DNA of 64,000 bases from NCBI GenBank assembly GCA_002215675.1, contig NGFH01000002.1:471887-535886 (forward strand), read 5' to 3'. The notes below the pieces were generated by a model. That model made no database searches, was not told where the DNA came from, and saw nothing but the letters and a program-made list of their open reading frames with translations. Made by a program: the position numbers and the translations under genes. Below are positions 34,570 through 34,716 of this stretch, in pieces. How positions within the stretch are numbered: position 1 is the first letter of the stretch; each line of letters begins with the position of its first letter. The stretch is from Bacteroidetes bacterium 2013_40CM_41_45. GTDB lineage: Bacteria > Bacteroidota > Bacteroidia > AKYH767-A > 2013-40CM-41-45.

Positions 34570-34625
34570 GGTAGAGCATCCGCCAGAGGCGGAAGGTCAT
34601 CAGTTCGATTCTGATCATTGGCTCA
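34570..34625 (+). repeat. tRNA-Thr 3'-part copy 1 with anticodon arm replaced by a palindrome
   Basis: The copy begins in the D arm (GGTAGAGCA) and ends AGGTCAT...ATCATTGGCTCA; its last 32 bases (34594-34625) are identical to 34504-34535 of tRNA-Thr(GGT). The 17-base anticodon arm of the tRNA is replaced by TCCGCC-AGA-GGCGGA (34579-34593). There is no 5' acceptor strand, so it cannot be a working tRNA. GGCGG at 34567-34571 could pair alternatively with the CCGCC of the palindrome. Confidence 0.9.
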
Positions 34626-34657
34626 ACTGAGAGGGGACGGAGAGCAAGGAAAGAGGC

Positions 34658-34716
34658 GGTAGAGCATCCGCCAGAGGCGGAAGGTCATCCCGCAGAATTG
34701 CGGGATCATTGGCTCA
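34658..34716 (+). repeat. tRNA-Thr 3'-part copy 2 with anticodon arm and T arm both replaced
   Basis: From 34654 to 34688 it is identical to 34566-34600 of copy 1, including TCCGCC-AGA-GGCGGA (34667-34681). The 13-base T-arm segment CAGTTCGATTCTG is then replaced by CCCGCAGAATTGCGGG (34689-34704), after which the acceptor strand ATCATTGGCTCA resumes (34705-34716). Confidence 0.9.

Follow-up and report, generated by a model that had tools for sequence, protein, structure and literature searches.

Two partial copies of the tRNA-Thr(GGT) gene, each with a palindrome standing exactly where the anticodon arm should be, follow the intact gene in a 64,000-nt stretch of a Bacteroidetes genome (hereafter the window). 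We consider it probable, at about 60%, that these copies are the ORF-less footprints of a family of small mobile elements that reside in partial, redundant tRNA-gene copies. A complete element of this kind would consist of an intact tRNA gene, an adjoining ORF of about 80 codons on the same strand that encodes a single-domain GIY-YIG protein, and a displaced part of the tRNA on the opposite side of the ORF. The displaced part would be either a 3′ tail lying downstream or a 5′ head lying upstream, with class-specific palindromes in its arms or in place of them. The window copies contain no ORF and have spacers of just 35-60 nt, and their link to the nuclease is drawn by analogy with other loci.

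The gene order in this part of the window is tRNA-Thr(TGT), tRNA-Tyr, tRNA-Gly, tRNA-Thr(GGT), tuf, tRNA-Trp, a secE-like gene and nusG, where the names of protein genes were assigned from their translations by inspection. The following features were found at tRNA-Thr(GGT):

34461-34534, + strand: intact tRNA-Thr(GGT), the parent gene (ARAGORN; Rfam RF00005, 69.8 bits)
34570-34578, + strand: copy 1, D-loop/D-stem 3′ piece GGTAGAGCA, identical to tRNA-Thr positions 18-26
34579-34593, + strand: copy 1, palindrome TCCGCC-AGA-GGCGGA (TCCGCCAGAGGCGGA), exact replacement of the 17-nt anticodon arm (tRNA positions 27-43)
34594-34625, + strand: copy 1, intact variable loop, T arm and 3′ acceptor strand of tRNA-Thr (32 nt, 100% identity)
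34658-34666, + strand: copy 2, GGTAGAGCA piece (direct reading and segment scan)
34667-34681, + strand: copy 2, palindrome TCCGCC-AGA-GGCGGA in place of the anticodon arm (segment scan)
34682-34686, + strand: copy 2, AGGTC (direct reading)
34687-34706, + strand: copy 2, palindrome ATCCCGCA-GAAT-TGCGGGAT in place of the T arm (tRNA positions 52-62 gone, outer ATC/GAT of the T stem retained)
34707-34716, + strand: copy 2, CATTGGCTCA, the 3′ acceptor strand CATTGGC plus TCA (direct reading)

The initial annotation described two 3′ parts of tRNA-Thr(GGT) with precisely replaced anticodon arms, and both direct reading and segment scans agreed with it. The whole 17-nt arm (CATCCATGGTAAGGATG, tRNA positions 27-43) is missing from both copies, and so are the 5′ acceptor strand and the greater part of the D arm. 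The exchange of the T arm in copy 2, also described there, was seen as well: positions 52-62 are gone, the ATC/GAT pairs are kept, and the tRNA sequence picks up exactly on either side of the swapped arms. One coordinate was corrected, as the third CATTGGC starts at 34707 and not at 34706. Copies 1 and 2 have in common a 39-nt repeat with 97% identity, and we infer that copy 2 is most likely a duplicate of copy 1 that lost its T arm later. Neither copy was called as a tRNA by ARAGORN or Rfam; with the 5′ acceptor strand missing there is no complete cloverleaf, and the Rfam search matched the copies to no known structured RNA. A promoter scan of the tail region returned no match, and the two terminator-like matches found were both on the minus strand. 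The regions flagged as minus-strand terminator-like (34568-34593 and 34656-34681) contain GGCGG-TAGAGCAT-CCGCC, which overlaps TCCGCC-AGA-GGCGGA, and thus each copy can make two mutually exclusive hairpins. Between copy 2 and tuf (34725-34799) there are imperfect purine-rich 37-nt repeats, 78% alike, which resemble in style the spacers preceding each tRNA copy.

It had been suggested earlier that the 5′ acceptor strand GCCAATG of tRNA-Thr may pair with any of the CATTGGC strands. Such pairing is energetically possible: in the minimum-free-energy fold of a 260-nt precursor (34461-34720), GCCAATG is paired with the third CATTGGC, but this structure accounts for 0.17% of the ensemble (frequency 0.0017). 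The tRNA-Thr alone folds as a normal cloverleaf.

A third copy with the same anatomy was found in the window, downstream of tRNA-Trp:

36201-36274, + strand: intact tRNA-Trp(CCA), parent of the third copy (ARAGORN; Rfam)
36327-36333, + strand: AGAGTGG, D-stem 3′ piece of tRNA-Trp
36334-36348, + strand: palindrome TCCGCC-TCA-GGCGGA in place of the tRNA-Trp anticodon arm
36349-36380, + strand: variable loop, T arm and 3′ acceptor strand of tRNA-Trp (TAGGTTGTAGGTTCGAGCCCTGCCACCCGTGC; 32 nt, exact)

The stem of this hairpin (TCCGCC/GGCGGA) is identical to that of the tRNA-Thr copies and the loop differs (TCA vs AGA). Among the 395 genomes scanned, the exact TCCGCC arm-plus-tail form was found in this one alone. 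The closest relative of the window form is a TCCGCC D-arm swap adjoining a GIY-YIG gene in Longitalea arenae (L160). A pattern scan for TCCCG-class anticodon-arm swaps gave 25 sites in 16 of the 395 Bacteroidota genomes, with 0 for the reversed-pattern control. In the genome under study, TCCGCCN3GGCGGA occurs at 6 sites (0 in the control), of which three lie in tRNA copies and the others are terminator-like, with varying loops. The TCCGCC class was rejected as an abundant genome-wide mobile repeat on these grounds. The window as a whole has no generic excess of palindromes (13 vs 10-14 in shuffles), and those distant from tRNAs are coding or terminator-like.

Displaced tRNA parts were then sought in all tRNA neighbourhoods of the genome, counting as a displaced copy any exact match of 14 nt or more that lies no further than 450 bp from the tRNA. 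Such copies were present near 12 of 41 host tRNAs and near 0 of 27 tRNAs on the phage-like contig C4; pairing with other isotypes, which served as the null, gave 2 of 957. Contig C4 (147,646 bp; loci L085-L087), the control in this comparison, has some 27 tRNA genes along with three GIY-YIG ORFs of greater length (215-309 aa), and it resembles a large phage or another kind of extrachromosomal element that brings its own tRNAs. The spacers between tRNA and tail were mostly 35-340 bp. In the Leu(tag) copy TCCCGATTGAAACATCGGGA stands for the anticodon arm, tRNA-Met has two copies with TCCGTYAGTTGACGGA, and in the Val(gac) copy the anticodon arm is replaced by TCCCACAATACTGCGGGA and the T loop holds a TGCTGAC...GTCAGCA double hairpin. 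The Gly(ccc), Arg(tct) and Pro(ggg) copies have palindromes of the TGCTGAC class, or related ones, inserted immediately 5′ of the T-loop TTCGA. Val(tac), Asn and Pro(tgg) are accompanied by upstream 5′ heads with exchanged D or anticodon arms. The tRNA-Pro(cgg) gene (C2:47681; L082) is directly followed on its 3′ side by three tandem units of ~45 nt with hairpins of the TGGCGC..GGCGCCA type. The motif TGCTGAY..RTCAGCA occurs at 27 genomic sites (0 in the control). TGCTGAC..GTCAGCA was seen at about 20 sites outside tRNA tails (L193-L207), several of them double hairpins with an adjoining CCTGAC..GTCAGG.

The view that ordinary decay by point mutation does not explain such copies held up, as the arrangement is recurrent and in most cases of this genome the tails are 100% identical to the parent tRNA across 21-39 nt while the arm is wholly replaced. 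The arrangement is no assembly artefact, for it recurs at tRNA-Trp within the window, at other tRNAs of the genome (Leu, Met) and in assemblies unrelated to this one. Palindromes near tRNAs were counted in loci that had not been selected for arm swaps (this genome, GIY-YIG loci and relatives of the tRNA-Thr locus). Sequence of the same tRNA was present on both flanks of 32 out of 392 palindromes, compared with 7 out of 1960 for other-isotype pairings; some of the 32 are tandem or overlapping copies within one locus, and the independent events are somewhat fewer. This data indicates that arm replacement is not due to chance. Among the 32, exact arm replacements number 18 (15 anticodon, 2 T and 1 D arm), and 8 more palindromes lie inside an arm. 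Many palindromes sit inserted in a loop and are not swapped for an arm.

The host contigs contain five small GIY-YIG ORFs. Three single-domain ORFs, at tRNA-Pro(ggg) (C2:160550), tRNA-Ser(tga) (C3:243841) and tRNA-Arg(ccg) (C10:228298), each lie between the tRNA and its displaced tail. The fourth, on contig C1, is located within a pseudo-copy of tRNA-Arg(cct) whose D and T arms hold palindromes. All four tRNA-linked proteins passed the Pfam GIY-YIG cut-off, and Pfam showed no separate DNA-binding domain. The fifth ORF (C10:331340; L103, 1402-1902) lies inside CATTGCGAG...GCAATC / GTCATTGCGAGCGAAGCGAAGCAATC palindromic repeats without a tRNA. This locus is a second, tRNA-free association of palindromes with a nuclease. 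Residues R26 and E62 (numbering of the tRNA-Pro protein) are invariant across the five proteins.

The tRNA-Pro GIY-YIG protein was used as a query against 84,980 species genomes, and 57 homologous loci from other species were obtained. An intact tRNA on the same strand was present within 200 bp at 36 of them, a tRNA solely on the opposite strand at none, and at the other 21 ARAGORN called no tRNA within 200 bp. The far side of the ORF carried an exact run of at least 12 nt of that tRNA at 26 of the 36 loci (null, 5 of 334). At these loci, too, palindromes replace tRNA arms. The ORF often ends in a stop codon contributed by the tRNA part (TAG, in TAGAGC or TAGCTC) or by the palindrome (TGA, in TGCTGAC). 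At two loci (L111 and L126) units of ORF, tail and terminator are arranged in tandem.

The palindrome class was compared with a tree of 58 nuclease proteins. The TGCTGAC class is limited to one clade, which includes the tRNA-Pro protein of this genome, and all other labelled loci belong to the CCCG/CCGCC class. Across the 31 labelled loci the class changed once on the tree, compared with a mean of 6.5 and a minimum of 3 in shuffles (0 of 2000 as low); the labels are regular expressions written after inspection of the loci, with two loci that have both classes omitted, and the tree is based on 86 columns, with long branches for two proteins of this genome. Within the TGCTGAC clade the tRNA isotype varies (Met, His, Arg, Pro), and since one class is found at several isotypes, we take the palindrome to be part of the element, with an origin other than the tRNA. 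Palindrome and nuclease could co-segregate because they are inherited together, and not through a coupling of enzyme and substrate. A locus from Dojkabacteria (L154) is nested inside a Bacteroidota clade of the tree, a placement that suggests horizontal transfer between phyla. The initial annotation had also proposed a mobile palindrome that targets stem-loops. The occurrence of one class at different isotypes in different species favours this proposal, but it overlooked the nuclease gene that goes with the palindromes in relatives and the many insertions into loops.

We propose the following route for the formation of these loci. The GIY-YIG enzyme would cut a tRNA gene at or near a stem-loop. 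Repair would then yield an intact tRNA together with a broken, redundant copy, much as homing can leave behind a displaced gene tail; this layout itself is observed at the loci described above and the route to it is putative. Finally, the palindromes of the element, and not those of the host tRNA, would fill the arms of the broken copy, either by exchange at the base of the stem (anticodon, T and D arms) or by insertion into a loop. Here the outcome can be read in the sequences, and the enzymology is our presumption. In the window, the probable order would be a swap of the anticodon arm, a tandem duplication of the pseudo-copy and a swap of the T arm in copy 2. A tentative extension, which we hold to be possible though doubtful, is that extruded DNA hairpins are what the small GIY-YIG enzymes work on, replacing one hairpin by another at the base of the stem. 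If the exact stem-base exchange reflects the mechanism and not a selected outcome, the enzyme would have to see the folded arm. Recombination of this form would be directed by structure and independent of sequence; tRNA arms would be its natural target, and its minimal mobile unit would be the palindrome.

Another source of the palindromes has to be weighed. REP hairpins are a known substrate of RAYT transposases. The palindromes could be REP-type elements moved by a Y1/RAYT transposase, with the tRNA copies as tolerant landing sites and the GIY-YIG genes as separate passengers; as a general explanation we regard this as unlikely. The sole Y1_Tnp (RAYT-like) gene of the genome (L217, 1911-1977) is flanked by the REP-like palindromes CAGTTGGCTGAAGCCAACTG and CCGTCAGCTTTAGCTGACGG, the latter resembling the arm replacements of the Met and Val(tac) copies (TCCGTCAGTTGACGGA and TCCGTCAGCTGACGAA). 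However, this single gene is interrupted by an internal stop, palindromes of the TGCTGAC, TCCGCC and TCCCGC kinds are absent from its flanks, and among other species the class of the palindrome goes with the GIY-YIG clade. A RAYT/REP source is a live rival for some of the hairpins; it fits the TCCGTCAG class and not the others.

It is less probable still that the tails are maintained by selection on RNA, as a structured leader or processing signal of tuf or secE-nusG in which the hairpin structure is kept while its sequence turns over. The two window tRNAs with such tails do stand before tuf and secE-nusG, and the fold of copy 2 is better than those of its shuffles (z -3.4), but copy 1 and the Trp copy do no better than theirs (z about -1.2). 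In this genome, tails built in the same way also come after tRNAs for Leu, Met, Gly, Arg, Val, Pro and Ser, and in most relatives the interval between tRNA-Thr and tuf has no copy. Moreover, several species have stem sequences in common (TCCCG, TCCGCC, TGCTGAC), which is unexpected if structure alone is selected.

We assign a similarly small chance to local mutation, in which tandem tRNA duplicates would have decayed and template switching in imperfect hairpins would have turned their arms into perfect palindromes. An apparent intermediate of duplication and decay exists in a genome of the same family (G009), where a second tRNA-Thr, diverged but of full length, shows partial changes in the anticodon arm. 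A genome of the same genus (G007) lacks a second copy, from which it follows that copies at the tRNA-Thr site come and go. Template switching reuses the sequence of the arm, yet the TCCGCC, TCCCGAT and TGCTGAC stems are unrelated to the arms they replaced. The tails beside a replaced arm are still identical to the tRNA, and the same stems, of several classes, recur at other isotypes and in other species.

Very improbable are attachment-site scars of lost tyrosine-recombinase elements (phages, ICEs) at tRNA 3′ ends: prokaryotic tRNA fragments left by integration are common (PMC9897764) and the tRNA-Arg(acg) tail lies near an integrase fragment (C6:390062), but integration does not produce an internal swap of an arm for a palindrome, the spacers from tRNA to tail are mostly 35-340 bp, and none of the 8 integrase-domain matches is near the Thr, Trp, Leu(tag), Met, Gly, Arg(tct), Val or Pro tails.

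On the reading that we prefer, the arm-swapped tRNA copies look like traces of a widespread small mobile element. If so, many tRNA neighbourhoods of Bacteroidota, and some of CPR bacteria, would harbour a mobile element of only a few hundred bases; being neither tRNAs nor ordinary genes, its copies escape annotation. The many tiny single-domain GIY-YIG genes whose annotation says no more than "nuclease" would likewise acquire a role. The exchange of an arm for a hairpin provides natural before/after pairs in which the ancestral sequence, the tRNA, is known, so that the movement of bacterial palindromic repeats, a long-standing question, becomes directly testable. In the open-access literature we found no account of bacterial tRNA-nested elements of GIY-YIG genes and palindromes, a scope that makes this absence weak evidence.

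The elements can be compared with several known systems. Free-standing GIY-YIG homing endonuclease elements are exemplified by the Allomyces mitochondrial GIY-YIG ORF that displaced the end of atp6. The likeness lies in a small GIY-YIG ORF beside an intact target and a displaced gene end on the opposite side. As in homing, a target gene is preserved and a displaced part of it retained (36 of the 57 loci, 26 of them across the ORF), and the GIY-YIG domain is present in the ORFs at tRNA-Pro, -Ser and -Arg and in the C1 pseudo-copy, though absent from the ORF-less window copies. In contrast to those elements, bacterial tRNA genes of many isotypes are targeted here, palindromes replace arms of the displaced part, and the nuclease is a single-domain protein with no DNA-binding domain visible in Pfam, whose cleavage is putative. 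The tRNA fragments left by phage or ICE integration (PMC9897764) are likewise partial copies close to an intact tRNA, but in our case there is no integrase, the element is at most a few hundred bp long and an internal arm is exchanged. With REP/BIME sequences and their RAYTs the elements have in common palindrome families that follow clades of the linked enzyme, and non-autonomous solo palindromes; here, however, the linked enzyme is a GIY-YIG and not a Y1/HUH protein, and tRNA arms are preferred. Mitochondrial repetitive and double hairpin elements (RHE/DHE) are known from Allomyces and sponges (PMC2800124). Their repetition at many sites has a counterpart in TGCTGAY..RTCAGCA, with its 27 sites, while the class of the window itself, TCCGCCN3GGCGGA, has six. 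They are similar in being short, sometimes double palindromes with conserved stems and variable loops, found in intergenic DNA and structured RNA genes, whereas the palindromes described here are bacterial, are bound to tRNA-gene copies and a GIY-YIG clade, and replace arms exactly.
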